Part shown: piece by piece, positions 1,294 to 31,172 of the stretch
How the letters are laid out: each line of letters begins with the position of its first letter
Position numbering within the stretch: the first letter of the stretch is position 1
NCBI GenBank assembly: GCA_028281535.1
Contig: JANQJS010000027.1
Coordinates: 1-32,069 of the forward strand
Source of the DNA: Sedimentisphaerales bacterium
GTDB taxonomy: Bacteria; Planctomycetota; Phycisphaerae; Sedimentisphaerales; SM23-30
DNA length: 32,069 nt
Direction: 5' to 3'
The notes under the pieces: model-generated
The model's database searches: none
What the model saw: the letters and a program-made list of their open reading frames with translations, nothing else
Told to the model about the DNA's origin: nothing
Translations under genes and position numbers: made by a program

Positions 1294-1381
1294 TTACCTG
1301 TTGGGTAAATTTCGCTTGATTTGCATTTTATATATTCCAACAGAAAAACTATCTGTCGGTATTTTCAAAGGAGATTCGATT

Positions 1382-3181
1382 ATGAAGCTTTATGCTTGTA
1401 TTGTTTTTACAATGATAGCTTTCTTAAATCAATATCTGAATGGTCAAATCATTTATTCGACCGATGACCTGTTAAATGAAATCAATCGCTATGACACAAC
1501 AACAAACCCAACCCAAAAAGACAATCTGTTTTCTTCCGTCCTTGACACTCCCGATGGTATCGCATTAGACTTAACCGCATCCAAAGTTTACTGGACCGAT
1601 CGTGGGGCAAACAAAATTCAACGTTCCAACTTAGATGGCAGTAATAAAGAAGATATAATTACTGCAGGATTATCTTCTCCCCAAGCGATTGCAATTGATT
1701 CATCTGGTGGAAAAATGTATTGGGTCGAATCGGCCAAAGTAAGACGAGCCAATTTGGATGGAACAAACATGGAAACACTCGTCACAGCCGGTCTTTCTGA
1801 TCCTCATGGCATTGCAATCGACACGACTGCAGGTAAAGTCTATTGGACCGATGATGGCAGTTCTAATAAAATTCAGCGAGCCAATTTTGATGGAAGTAAT
1901 GTTGAAGATTTAGTCACTGGGGTCAATGGATTAAAAGGTATAGCTCTTGATACCGCCTCAGGAAAAATGTATTGGGTTGCCCCCGTAGGAAAAGGGACAG
2001 ATAAAATTCAAAGAGCCAACCTGGACGGCTCAAACATTGAAGATCTGATCACATCTGGTACCTTTTTCGCTGAAAGCATCACCCTTGATCTTGCCAATGG
2101 GAAAATGTATATCGGCGATCCAGGATTTAATAACATATTCAGAGCCAATCTGGATGGTACAGGCCTGGAAACGATCGTATCACAAACGTTTACGTATCCT
2201 GATGGCATGACCATTGATCCTACTAACGGGAAAATATATTGGGCAAACCATAGCACATCAAAAAAAATCCAGCGAGCCAACTTAGATGGCTCAAACATTG
2301 AAGACCTCGTTTTCAATCACGCTGAAGAACCAACAGGTATAGCAATCGACACCACCATGGGAAAAATATATTGGACAGAAAAATCGCTTTTACAAATTAA
2401 AACATCAAATATTGATGGAACCAATTTTGAAAATATATCGCTTAACAGTTTTACATTCCCTGAAAGTATCGCACTCGACATTGCCAACGGAAAAATGTAT
2501 TGGACAGACACGATATACAAAGAAATCTTGCGATCAAATCTTGATGGTTCTAACATAGAAGAACTTTTAAGTACTGGATCAAATAAAGCGCATACTATTG
2601 CTCTCGATTTGGACAATGAAAAAATGTATTGGACCAGTGCTGGATCATCTGACAAAATCCAACGTGCTAACCTGGATGGCACTAACATTGAAGATATTGT
2701 TACAAGCGGTCTTAGCTATCCATGGGGAATTGCATTAGATCTGACTTCCGGAAAGATTTATTGGACAGATGCAGGCACAAATATAATCCAACGAGCAAAC
2801 CTGGATGGATCAAATGTTGAAACACTTATTTCTTCAGGCCTGAATAACCCATGGGCTATTGAACTCGATCTCATCGCAAATAAGATGTATTGGACGGATG
2901 AAGGCTCCAAAAAGATTCAACGAGCAAACCTTGATGGCTCAAACATTGAAAATATTGTGACGAGTGGCTTAGACCGTCCTTATGATATTGCATTATATTT
3001 CCCACTACTTCCAACAGATCTCAATCAAGATCACATTATTAACATCATCGATTTTTCGCTCCTTAGTAGTGACTTTGGATGCCTAGCAAGTTGTATGGCT
3101 GATATTAATAATGATGGACAAGTTGATTTAGATGATGCTATTCAATTCGTTTCTGATTGGCTAGAAGGCGCATCCAACTAA
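1382..3181 (+). CDS. Secreted YWTD (LDL-receptor class B type) double beta-propeller with dockerin-like C-terminus
   Basis: The start at 1382 is chosen because AAAGGAG lies about ten bases upstream and the product then begins with a signal peptide (MKLYACIVFTMIAFLNQYLNG). An in-frame ATG at 1301 would bury that signal. The 599-residue protein carries about eleven repeats of the pattern GIALD...GK-YWTD...IQRANLDGSN, plus an initial IIYSTD and a final strand DIALYF. That is enough for about twelve blades, that is two six-bladed YWTD propellers. The last 55 residues hold two calcium-loop motifs, DLNQDHIINIID and DINNDGQVDLDD, of the dockerin or EF-hand type common in exported proteins of Phycisphaerae. 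Such propellers usually bind proteins or glycans; the ligand is not predictable here. No catalytic residues were seen. It stands as a single gene between ppdK and the glycosyltransferase. Confidence 0.88.
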   Translation: MKLYACIVFTMIAFLNQYLNGQIIYSTDDLLNEINRYDTTTNPTQKDNLFSSVLDTPDGIALDLTASKVYWTDRGANKIQRSNLDGSNKEDIITAGLSSPQAIAIDSSGGKMYWVESAKVRRANLDGTNMETLVTAGLSDPHGIAIDTTAGKVYWTDDGSSNKIQRANFDGSNVEDLVTGVNGLKGIALDTASGKMYWVAPVGKGTDKIQRANLDGSNIEDLITSGTFFAESITLDLANGKMYIGDPGFNNIFRANLDGTGLETIVSQTFTYPDGMTIDPTNGKIYWANHSTSKKIQRANLDGSNIEDLVFNHAEEPTGIAIDTTMGKIYWTEKSLLQIKTSNIDGTNFENISLNSFTFPESIALDIANGKMYWTDTIYKEILRSNLDGSNIEELLSTGSNKAHTIALDLDNEKMYWTSAGSSDKIQRANLDGTNIEDIVTSGLSYPWGIALDLTSGKIYWTDAGTNIIQRANLDGSNVETLISSGLNNPWAIELDLIANKMYWTDEGSKKIQRANLDGSNIENIVTSGLDRPYDIALYFPLLPTDLNQDHIINIIDFSLLSSDFGCLASCMADINNDGQVDLDDAIQFVSDWLEGASN

Positions 3182-13804: not shown

Positions 13805-13867
13805 GTAGGTCAGGCCACGCCTGACAATTGAATGTTTAGAGAACCTGTCAGGCAAGGCCTGACCTAC
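13805..13867. repeat. REP-like element: paired inverted palindromes upstream of folD
   Basis: Arms at 13805-13825 and 13847-13867 are 21 bases each and match at 19 of 21 positions as an inverted repeat, with a 21-base loop. Each arm is itself a small palindrome: gtcaggc/gcctgac around cac on the left and around aag on the right. The element could therefore form one long hairpin or two short ones. The form (two inverted copies of a short GC-rich palindrome between genes) is like REP/BIME elements. It lies between the diguanylate cyclase stop and the folD ribosome site, with no T-tract. Confidence 0.88.
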
Positions 13868-28155: not shown

Positions 28156-28935
28156 TTACTCTTCATTCTCATCTTCTTCGCCACGCTGACTTGGTGGTAA
28201 GAATGTTTTAAGTTTCTGTTCAACAATTCTGGGATTATCTCCAGACTGAATGCTCATGACGCCCCGTAGTACGATCATTTTTCGCATCAGTTCTTCTTCA
28301 TTTCTGACACCTAATTTATCTGCGATGGGTAAAGCAAACATATTGGCGAACATCGAACCATAAAGTGTTGTAAGTAGAGCAACGGCCATACCAGGACCAA
28401 TCGCAGAAGGATCGTCCATATTCATCAACATGATAACCAGCCCAACAAGTGTTCCGATCATACCAAACGCGGGAGCATATCTTCCAAAACCATCGAAAAT
28501 GGCTTTTCCGCCATTATGTCTATCAGAGATTGCTTCCAGTTCACTTTCCATAATTTGCTCGATGAGATCTGGATCGGTACCATCGACCGCCATTTGTATG
28601 CCTTTTACGATAAAAGGATCGCGAGCATCACGTGTGGCATTTTCTAAAGATAGGATTCCATCACGACGAGCGATTTCAGCGTAACCAACGAGATCATCAA
28701 TCAAATCTTTGATGGATTCATCTTTATGAAAATAGGCATTTTTAAGAACTTTTCCAAATCCTAGAAAATGTTTTAAGGGAAATACCATCATGGTTGATGC
28801 GATAGCCCCACCCACAACGATCATGGCAGAACTTACACTGATAAAAGCACCAATTTTATCACCGGCACCTGAGACGATAGCAAAACCGACCAATCCCATC
28901 CCCAGCAGTGCACCAATCAATGTTGCTAGATCCAT
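28156..28935 (-). CDS. motA: Flagellar stator protein MotA, PomA-like (probably sodium type)
   Basis: This 259-residue protein has four membrane helices. The cytoplasmic loop carries the charged residues Arg90 and Glu98 that act on FliG. Helices 3 and 4 read APAFGMIGTLVGLVIMLMNM, DDPSAIGPGMAVALLTTLYG, and then SMFANMFALPIADKL, which closely follows PomA of Vibrio (as remembered) rather than E. coli MotA. The N-terminus MDLATLIG and the C-terminal SIQSGDNPRIVEQKLKTFL also match the PomA type. A sodium-driven motor is therefore likely but not proven. It is followed by motB after two bases. Confidence 0.96.
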   Translation of the reverse strand: MDLATLIGALLGMGLVGFAIVSGAGDKIGAFISVSSAMIVVGGAIASTMMVFPLKHFLGFGKVLKNAYFHKDESIKDLIDDLVGYAEIARRDGILSLENATRDARDPFIVKGIQMAVDGTDPDLIEQIMESELEAISDRHNGGKAIFDGFGRYAPAFGMIGTLVGLVIMLMNMDDPSAIGPGMAVALLTTLYGSMFANMFALPIADKLGVRNEEELMRKMIVLRGVMSIQSGDNPRIVEQKLKTFLPPSQRGEEDENEE

Positions 28936-28976: not shown

Positions 28977-29168
28977 TCAGGTTGATAAAATATTTAGTTG
29001 TCTTTTATATTCAATAGTCAATTGAACAATCGCATCAATGGATTCCTGAACAATCACTTTATCCCCGGTACTTAATGTTATCATGGTATCTGGTGTTGAT
29101 TCGATATAGCGAATCATTTCAGCATTTACCACAAATCTTTTACCATTTAATTTTGTCACAGCAATCAT
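28977..29168 (-). CDS. flbD: Small flagellar protein, FlbD family
   Basis: The start is placed at 29168 (MIAVTKLNGKRFVVNAEMIR), because GGTGA just upstream fits the anti-Shine-Dalgarno end and family members begin this way. An ATG three codons earlier is possible. The 63-residue product has the family pattern LNG-FVVNAE-IRYIESTPDT-ITL-GDKVIVQESIDAIV and ends EYKRQL. FlbD-family small proteins sit between flgE and motA in many bacteria; their role is unclear, and this is not the NtrC-like FlbD of Caulobacter. Two strong hairpin repeats lie just upstream (29191-29314). Confidence 0.88.
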   Translation of the reverse strand: MIAVTKLNGKRFVVNAEMIRYIESTPDTMITLSTGDKVIVQESIDAIVQLTIEYKRQLNILST

Positions 29169-29190: not shown

Positions 29191-29229
29191 GGCCTCGCGA
29201 CAGCAGAATAAACACCCTGCCGCGAGGCC
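29191..29229. repeat. GC-rich hairpin repeat, copy 1 (flbD-proximal)
   Basis: Arms ggcctcgcgacag (29191-29203) and ctgccgcgaggcc (29217-29229) pair at 12 of 13 positions around a 13-base AT-rich loop. The same unit recurs in the same orientation at 29275-29314. On the transcribed strand it ends about 22 bases before the flbD start. No T-tract follows, so it is not a standard terminator. Confidence 0.92.
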
Positions 29230-29274
29230 CGGGAGTAGTTTGTGATCGTGCCCGGAGCACGTTATATTTTAGGT

Positions 29275-29314
29275 GGCCTCGCGACAGCAGAATAAACACC
29301 CCTGTCGCGAGGCC
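29275..29314. repeat. GC-rich hairpin repeat, copy 2 (flgE-proximal)
   Basis: Arms ggcctcgcgacag (29275-29287) and ctgtcgcgaggcc (29302-29314) are a perfect 13-base inverted repeat with a 14-base loop (cagaataaacaccc). It differs from copy 1 by one base in the stem and one base in loop length, and the likeness extends into the flanking cccggg. The hairpin begins about 22 bases after the flgE stop. Between the copies a small stem (cgtgc/gcacg) is also present. Confidence 0.92.
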
Positions 29315-29336
29315 CGGGGTTATTTCAATTTAGACC

Positions 29337-31172
29337 TTACCTAGATAAAGCAATTAATTCATTTAATAGTCGATCACTCGTTTGAATAACTCGAGAGGAT
29401 GCTGAGAAACCTGTACTACTAATAATTAAGTTGATAAATTCACGGCTTAAATCGACATTACTTAATTCAAGAGCCGCGGATTGAATACTACCAGCACCTA
29501 ATTCCAAAGGTTTTTTCACCAGAGAGTTACCTGAGTTAGGACCTCCTTTAAAAAGGTTTCCTTCTTGGCTAACCAGCCCTTCATAATTTCTAAAAGTGGC
29601 TAAAACAACCTGGCCAAGATCACGTGTTAATCCATTATCAAAGGAACCAACAATTACACCATCTTGACCAATTGAATAGTCTTGAAGCGTACCAGATTGG
29701 AAGCCATCCTGGCTTAGGAGTGACATAGCACTGGGAAGTTTGAATCCATTCATTCTTGAAAAATCGAGTGTAATACTTTGTGGTGTTGATGCCCCTGTAT
29801 CTGCTCTATCAATACTAATGACTTGATCTGTTGCACTAAGAAATTGTCCGAAGGAATCGATAACAATGGTTCCTGTACCTAAAACTGTATCAGGCATGAC
29901 ACCAAGCCCTTTTGAATCATCAGGACTTTCGGCAAAATATCGCCATATATGGCCACCATTGTTTGTGGTTTCTTTGACCATGGTAACATTTATATTCATC
30001 GGATTACCTAATGAATCATAAGCTCGAAATGAAGTTCGAATACTTTCACCTAATTTTGCTTTCAATTCATCCGTTGTCGTTAATGAGGCTGTAGACGAGG
30101 CAAACTGGAATGGCGTCGTAACCGGGGGAACACCCGCAGCAGTACCTTGCTCGACAGTGATTGCTTTTGATCCGAGTATGATATTGTTTTCATGTCCAAT
30201 ATTTCCCACAATACGAATCGTACCATCATCTGCTGGTGCGCTACTACCAATATTGGCACCAGGATTGTAATCAGCAGATAACGCTGTCATATCGATAAGA
30301 TTTGCAGAGGTATTTATACCTAAGACACCTTCAAGCCAAGTGGCTAATTCGCCATAGGTTGTCCCGGTAGTTCCGACAGTAAATTGTTTCACCGCGAGGT
30401 TTGCTCCACCTTTATTTGCTTCAGCGAGATTAATCACATTACCATTAGCAAATAATTGTTGGCCTGCAGCATTATATAAACTGGTTAATGCTGTTGCAGC
30501 AACAGCAGGAACTGTGGCAGCTAAATCGCTATATAAAACCTGACTGGTAAGTACAGTCCTTGGCACTAAGGTTGGATCGGTACCAGCAATCGCTTCAGCT
30601 GCACGGGTATTTGCAGCTTTGACATTTTGATTGGCGTCGAGATTACCACTGAACTGTGCAAACGAAGTTGTTGCTGCAGTTGTAATTTCACCGATGGGAA
30701 TTCTGATCCTGTCGAGTTGTCCTTCAACAATATTAAAGTTACTGTCAATACCATATCCACTCAGATAAAGTCCATGTTGTGATACCAGGAAATTTTCTTT
30801 ATTGAAAGCAAAACTGCCATCACGAGAAAAAATCTGTGAGCCATCCGCTTTTTCAAGAATGAACAAGCCTTGGCCTTGAACAGCCAAGTCGGTTTTTAAT
30901 CCAGTTGATTCCGGCGCACCAACACTGAAATCTCTGGCCATTCCACCTACCATGGAACCTGATCCGATTTGAACAGGATTCGTTCCACCAATGGTTGCAG
31001 AAGGTGCTGAACCAAAGCTGAACGTAGATGAGAACTGCGATTGAAATGTCACACGTTGTGACTTAAAAGCATGGGTGTTCACATTTGCGATGTTATTACC
31101 AATGACATCCATCCTGAATTCATTGGTTTTCATGCCGGATAAACCAGCAAATAATGATGACGTTAAACCCAT
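29337..31172 (-). CDS. flgE: Flagellar hook protein FlgE
   Basis: This 611-residue protein has the rod/hook-family N-terminus (LFAGLSGMKTNEFRMDVIGN, NIANVNTHAFKSQRVTFQSQ) and C-terminus (LELSNVDLSREFINLIISST, GFSASSRVIQTSDRLLNELI), which pair into the coiled-coil core of the hook. DLAVQGQGLFILEKADG and FSRDGSFAFNKENFLVSQHG form the D1 part. The middle (about residues 180-380) is an Ala/Thr/Gly-rich extra domain, making it longer than the E. coli hook protein (402 residues). Large hook proteins are usual in non-enteric bacteria. The start has GGAGG nine bases upstream, 19 bases after flgD. Confidence 0.96.
   Translation of the reverse strand: MGLTSSLFAGLSGMKTNEFRMDVIGNNIANVNTHAFKSQRVTFQSQFSSTFSFGSAPSATIGGTNPVQIGSGSMVGGMARDFSVGAPESTGLKTDLAVQGQGLFILEKADGSQIFSRDGSFAFNKENFLVSQHGLYLSGYGIDSNFNIVEGQLDRIRIPIGEITTAATTSFAQFSGNLDANQNVKAANTRAAEAIAGTDPTLVPRTVLTSQVLYSDLAATVPAVAATALTSLYNAAGQQLFANGNVINLAEANKGGANLAVKQFTVGTTGTTYGELATWLEGVLGINTSANLIDMTALSADYNPGANIGSSAPADDGTIRIVGNIGHENNIILGSKAITVEQGTAAGVPPVTTPFQFASSTASLTTTDELKAKLGESIRTSFRAYDSLGNPMNINVTMVKETTNNGGHIWRYFAESPDDSKGLGVMPDTVLGTGTIVIDSFGQFLSATDQVISIDRADTGASTPQSITLDFSRMNGFKLPSAMSLLSQDGFQSGTLQDYSIGQDGVIVGSFDNGLTRDLGQVVLATFRNYEGLVSQEGNLFKGGPNSGNSLVKKPLELGAGSIQSAALELSNVDLSREFINLIISSTGFSASSRVIQTSDRLLNELIALSR

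Follow-up and report, generated by a model that had tools for sequence, protein, structure and literature searches.

The spacer between the hook protein gene flgE and the gene flbD in a planctomycete flagellar operon holds two near-identical GC-rich hairpins, which raises the question of what a repeated structure of this kind does at the end of a hook transcript. Here, we analysed a window of 32,069 nucleotides from a planctomycete genome of 4.44 Mb (G000, contig C59), the closest named relatives of which, by FlgE, are Sedimentisphaerales and Phycisphaerae MAGs, and compared the hairpins with those of related genomes.

The hairpins of the flgE-flbD spacer

The flagellar genes of the window lie on the minus strand in the order flgD, flgE, flbD, motA, motB, fliL, fliN-like, fliO, fliP, fliR, flhB, flhA, flhF-like, a gene for a MinD/ParA-like ATPase and one for a sigma-70-family (FliA-like) factor. 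The hook gene flgE (29337..31172, minus strand; Pfam FlgE_D2 and Flg_bbr_C) is followed by the SwrD-like flbD (28977..29168, minus strand; PF06289) and then by motA (28156..28935, minus strand; PF01618), and Pfam confirmed the identities of FlgE, FlbD, MotA and MotB. A first-pass annotation of the same DNA had described two hairpins in one orientation with 45 bases between them, and we found them as described. Copy 1, on the side of the flgE stop (29275..29314, minus strand), is a perfect 13-base inverted repeat on the plus strand and forms a 13-bp stem with a 14-base loop; copy 2, on the side of the flbD start (29191..29229, minus strand), has one change in the stem and a loop shorter by one G. 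This single change is a G-U pair when read as mRNA of the minus strand, and therefore both 13-bp stems are intact in the mRNA. Each copy lies about 22 bases from the neighbouring gene, copy 1 from the flgE stop (29337) and copy 2 from the flbD start (29168), in agreement with the placement noted before. The hairpin pattern appeared in 0 of 100 shuffles, and the predicted folding of the spacer RNA was 4.7 SD below that of dinucleotide shuffles. An intrinsic terminator, for which a GC-rich stem should be followed immediately by a U-tract, was rejected for both window copies since neither has a T-tract behind it, as had been pointed out; the bases 3′ of the stem are T-rich in some relatives.

In the mRNA sense, the conserved unit reads ACCC(C)GG-GCCUCGCG(A/G)CAG-(G)GGUGUUUAUUCUG-CUGUCGCGAGGCC, and it extends to a 5′ flank, ACCC(C), which was overlooked in the first-pass annotation. 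The flank is ACCCCGG at copy 1 (29315..29321, minus strand) and a diverged version, ACUCCCGG, at copy 2 (29230..29237, minus strand). Pairing between the flank ACCC(C) and the loop GGG(G)U, which is GGGGU in copy 1, is suggestive only: the lengths of the C-run and the G-run tend to match, but no double-sided change was found. A pseudoknot of this kind is moreover broken in some copies (copy 2 of G251 and copy 2 of G248), and a link of 1-2 nt could hardly bridge a 13-bp stem. A second small hairpin, of the GTGCC...GGCAC type, is present in several genomes, either between the hairpin copies or behind them; in the window it is CGTGCTCCGGGCACG at 29240-29265.

Two other features were observed elsewhere in the window. 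A separate 22-base inverted repeat with a REP-like look, GTAGGTCAGGCCACGCCTGACA...TGTCAGGCAAGGCCTGACCTAC, lies in a spacer at 13805-13867, and an ORF at 1301-3181 contains at least 10 tandem repeats of about 129 bases, which encode a beta-propeller-like IYWT(D/E)...(R)ANLDG motif.

Distribution and conservation of the element

A dispersed repeat of the REP or MITE type, one of the origins suggested earlier, would be expected in many spacers. Searches of the whole window genome with the 13-base arm (at most one mismatch), with an 81-base blastn query and with a covariance model all agreed on two copies in 4.44 Mb, both in the flgE-flbD spacer, and the relatives likewise carry the unit at this single locus. 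Because it is absent elsewhere in the genome, the unit is not a dispersed repeat, and the mobile-element reading was abandoned. A further arm match with one mismatch (G000:C27:79065) belonged to a different hairpin, located 3′ of flagellin C, and viral spread was rejected since no match was found among viral contigs.

By pattern search and with the covariance model, 22 copies of the unit were recovered, one to three per genome, from the flgE-flbD spacers of 12 of the family's 13 genomes (11 genera), and flgE was found upstream and flbD downstream wherever the contig permits reading. The thirteenth genome (G255, 78% complete) has no unit, and its assembly also has neither an flgE ortholog nor FlbD. 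Among the remaining 148 genomes of the order there was one weak partial match (E 0.008, 24 positions), and among 392 genomes of the phylum another weak one (G705, E 8e-4), which has a differing loop and was regarded as chance; no convincing copy was thus found outside the family in the order or the phylum sample. The window had no match in Rfam at the gathering threshold, and the weak sub-threshold matches were mostly to microRNA models. Within the order, the genomes with FlbD are precisely the 12 that bear the unit, which would suit a reading in which an RNA-binding protein, such as FlbD itself, binds loop and stem and thereby controls the operon, and conservation of the ACCC(C) flank would suit it as well. 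However, FlbD is present in 115 of the 392 phylum genomes, and none of those outside the family carries the unit in that sample; nor would a protein site predict the complement of the loop in flagellin A described below, and we consider this explanation very improbable. In the search at the level of the order, FlgE and FlbD of the unit-bearing family were very different from those of the remaining genomes or had no counterpart there, so that the flagellar cluster of this family may have a separate history.

Covariation among relatives had been proposed as a check on the hairpins, and the alignment provided it. Over the 12 inner stem pairs of the 22 copies, we counted 240 Watson-Crick pairs and 24 G-U pairs on the flgE strand, with no A-C and no other mismatch, while the thirteenth pair, at the loop, is lost in four copies. 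Three stem pairs show compensatory two-sided changes (GC/AU, CG/UA and GC/AU), and the covariation score was above all shuffles and slid controls, although related sequences may beat shuffles without any structure. These substitutions show that the stem has been kept at the level of RNA, on the flgE strand. The loop is more constant still: its invariant bases are GUGUUUAUUCUG, and the 12 bases GTGTTTATTCTG are identical in 22 of 22 copies, with the limit that the search patterns and the model contained the loop, so that strongly diverged loops could escape detection. Across the unit-bearing genera, FlgE identity to the window protein is as low as 57-66%, yet GTGTTTATTCTG is unchanged. Loop and stem are both conserved, and the earlier suspicion that the unit is more than a plain hairpin was well founded; a conserved structured element in the 3′UTR is also what characterizes a 3′UTR-encoded trans-acting regulatory RNA. 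A peptide encoded by the loop (GTG TTT ATT CTG CTG TCG ...) was rejected, since the third codon positions are invariant and the downstream bases and frames are variable.

The spacing between the flgE stop and the first copy is 10-20 nt in 10 of 12 genomes, and 34 and 60 nt in the remaining two, whereas the gap between the last copy and the flbD start varies between 22 and 314 nt. The element thus keeps its position relative to the end of flgE and not to the start of flbD, which disfavours the translational control of flbD that had been put forward. This fixed place would equally suit a 3′ processing or stability element of flgE, acting as an exonuclease barrier, an RNase III site or a partial attenuator before flbD-motA, to which the match with flagellin would be secondary or accidental; the very stable 13-bp stems, the T-rich bases 3′ of the stem in some relatives and the presence, 3′ of the flagellin cluster, of a hairpin whose stem is related point the same way. 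The loop, however, which a barrier would not need to keep unchanged, varies least of all parts of the unit, and the fixed synonymous codons of flagellin A (see below) would be left unexplained. We regard this as an improbable account of the whole element; protection of the flgE mRNA or attenuation, as proposed earlier, may act in addition, but it does not explain the loop.

Complementarity between the loop and the start of flagellin A

An exact search of the family for the complement of the loop returned, outside the spacer, three matches in orthologous genes, and the shared site was the start of a flagellin, ATG AGC AGA ATA AAC ACC. Flagellin was the only recurring gene in the sense orientation among the exact 12-mer matches beyond the spacer; a second site, shared by G235 and G253 of one genus, is antisense to its reading frame and was set aside. 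A search with the flagellin N-terminus identified three closely related paralogs per genome, which we named A, B and C. The loop together with the top of the stem is antisense to AGC AGA AUA AAC AC, that is, codons 2-6 of flagellin A. In the window, the antisense segment is GGUGUUUAUUCUGCU in the mRNA, at 29286..29300 in copy 1 and, with identical sequence, at 29202..29216 in copy 2 (both minus strand). Flagellins with readable starts in other families of the order begin with MLAIKNN, so there is no target there.

Of 11 genomes, 8 have a paralog A that begins with ATG AGC AGA ATA AAC AC(C/T/A), and the rest show deviations of single codons; the loop with the first bases of the 3′ stem matches paralog A over 14-15 positions with no mismatch in 9 of 11. 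Of the 10 genomes that yielded both the unit and paralog A, 8 show full pairing. G253 has a single mismatch in the target, and G250 has one mismatch plus one extra G-U pair; neither is compensated by a change in the loop, which means that loop and target show conservation but no covariation. In contrast, B and C encode a near-identical peptide, M(S/A/T)RINTN, with other codons (e.g., TCA CGT ATC AAT ACG) and do not fit. The mean number of paired positions out of 15 was 14.6 for A, 11.8 for B and 8.9 for C. Hybrid energies ranged from -18.4 to -25.0 kcal/mol for A and were never better than -15.2 for B or C, even when the 100 bases surrounding the start were considered; for codons 2-6, the values of A did not overlap with those of B and C (Mann-Whitney p 4e-6, the genomes not being independent). 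After subtraction of the cost of opening the target, the means were -19.8, -7.8 and -2.2 kcal/mol for A, B and C, and the most accessible site among the three paralogs was that of A. Complementarity to the start of a target mRNA, as expected of a regulatory RNA, is thus conserved over 14-15 bp for A and not for B or C.

We compared these values with background. In the window genome, flagellin A reached -23.0 kcal/mol, while the best of 29 gene starts of the window reached -16.5; 1.5% of random 100-base stretches reach -18.4, and the lowest value among 19,778 random stretches was -22.5, with none at -23. A 14-nt match alone is common within one genome (E 3.8), and the case therefore rests on the comparison between genomes. 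Codon identity of flagellin A among genomes was 0.82, 0.82, 0.65 and 1.0 for codons 2-5, falling to 0.31 at codon 6, with a mean of 0.43 over codons 7-49. Codons 2-5 rank first of 51 four-codon windows for synonymous conservation in A and are not at the top in B or C; AGC AGA ATA AAC is near-fixed in A, whereas B and C use other codons, and the conservation ends together with the match, at the third base of codon 6. Codons 2-3 of paralog C (TCA CGT) are likewise conserved, which cautions that a start region may owe its conservation to something else.

The shared sequence might also be bound by a transcription factor, as double-stranded DNA and at both loci, in which case either orientation would be possible. 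The slightest of weights is given to this reading, since the stems depart from Watson-Crick pairing solely by G-U in the mRNA strand and never by A-C, and the flagellin copy lies within the coding sequence directly after the start codon in every genome.

Further features were observed around the other flagellin genes. A terminator-like hairpin, CCCGGGCCTCCGACAGG...CCTGTCGCGAGGCC, followed by a T-run, lies 3′ of flagellin C (G000:C27:79040-79140); its stem is nearly that of the flgE unit and its loop is variable, and it is preceded by about 250 bases of structured-looking, partly conserved 3′UTR. The leaders of flagellin C, and in part of B, carry a conserved GTCACGGAGGAT around the Shine-Dalgarno sequence which is absent from A, and no complement of the CCTCCGTGACA type was found in the window.

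A possible role of the hook transcript and its relation to known regulators

The evidence points to antisense pairing in trans with a flagellin mRNA, a role absent from the proposals of the first-pass annotation. On the comparisons above, pairing between the loop and flagellin A is supported; from it we infer the direction of regulation, its repressive outcome, a role in the timing of assembly and pairing in the cell. The reading that we favour, and think likely, is that the one to three hairpins of the flgE 3′UTR pair through their loops with codons 2-6 of flagellin A and lower its translation initiation. The loop would base-pair with the flagellin A mRNA just past the start codon, inside the ribosome footprint, and initiation would be reduced as a result; a small RNA that pairs anywhere in the first five codons will usually prevent initiation, according to the five-codon window cited in PMC7769764. 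A 14-nt loop sits on a 13-bp stem, and pairing over the full length is perhaps impossible without opening of the stem top. The hairpin might act within the intact flgE-flbD-mot transcript or as a processed 3′UTR fragment, and abundant hook-operon mRNA would then hold the filament protein back, which would add a post-transcriptional layer to the hook-before-filament order. Because the invariant loop is antisense to the first flagellin codons, the hook transcript probably helps to control the timing of the filament protein.

All the pairing evidence is neutral on direction, and the two RNAs might pair with a reversed or positive effect, in which the flagellin mRNA would change, for instance, how the flgE-flbD-mot transcript is degraded or processed, or would itself be protected or co-localised by the hook mRNA. 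As a rule, flagellin transcripts far outnumber those of the hook gene, which would count for such an effect. However, the site is exactly codons 2-6 of flagellin, in the zone where pairing usually blocks initiation (the five-codon window, as cited in PMC7769764), and this position would bring no advantage if the hook mRNA alone were regulated; we judge this explanation unlikely, though the least so of the alternatives. Returning to repression of flagellin A, a more specific and tentative version, to which we lend somewhat less than even credence, is that the hook operon mRNA serves as a checkpoint, with the loops silencing or titrating one flagellin mRNA, the copy number (1-3) setting the dose and the ACCC(C) flank locking the loop. 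If true, this would be a direct base-pairing link from hook to filament genes in planctomycetes. The delay of the filament behind the hook is mostly explained by the sigma28/FlgM switch, and a hook mRNA with conserved antisense loops against a flagellin start is a candidate for a second route beside it. Such a candidate would be a flagellar RNA regulator in Planctomycetota for which the exact base pairs are predicted.

Regulators that act through antisense loops are known, such as RNAIII of Staphylococcus aureus, the hairpin loops of which pair in trans with translation initiation regions; RNAIII is a separate multi-domain RNA, unlike the planctomycete unit, which is an element of an operon spacer. 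In the open-access literature that was searched, we found no earlier report of the element and no flagellar RNA regulator in planctomycetes.

It is established that RNAs from flgE 3′ ends (CJnc230) and from flagellar UTRs (FliX, FlgO and MotR) regulate flagellar mRNAs. MotR, FliX and FlgO of E. coli are sigma28-dependent RNAs from the UTRs of flagellar genes that act on flagellar mRNAs (PMC10578931), and FliX, from the fliC 3′UTR, is reported to have its pairing site inside the fliC coding sequence and, when overexpressed, to lower flagellin (PMC10578931). They differ from the planctomycete unit in that they are bound by Hfq and come from other genes, the pairing is internal to fliC and not at codons 2-6, and there are no repeated hairpins (PMC10578931). 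The flg-Rhizobiales RNA motif (RF01736), as listed in PMC2864571, is likewise a comparative-genomics motif named for flagellar genes; it belongs to other bacteria, and the window was below the threshold of every Rfam model. The closest likeness is to CJnc230 (FlmE) of Campylobacter jejuni, which is encoded directly downstream of flgE, as the planctomycete hairpins are, is co-transcribed with it and cut from its mRNA, and pairs at the translation starts of flagellar mRNAs (PMC11187230). The pairing segment of CJnc230 is single-stranded, a 12-nt anti-Shine-Dalgarno stretch flanked by two stem-loops, whereas that of the planctomycete unit is a hairpin loop in one to three copies; and CJnc230 represses flgM and Cj1387c and so raises flagellin (PMC11187230), whereas the planctomycete target is the coding start of a flagellin. 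The planctomycete unit is set apart from these regulators by the phylum, the use of a loop as the pairing segment, the repetition of the unit and a flagellin coding-start target with a paralog control within each genome. Campylobacter belongs to a different phylum and we do not claim a common origin; a regulator in the flgE 3′UTR may have arisen in planctomycetes independently of the Campylobacter one.
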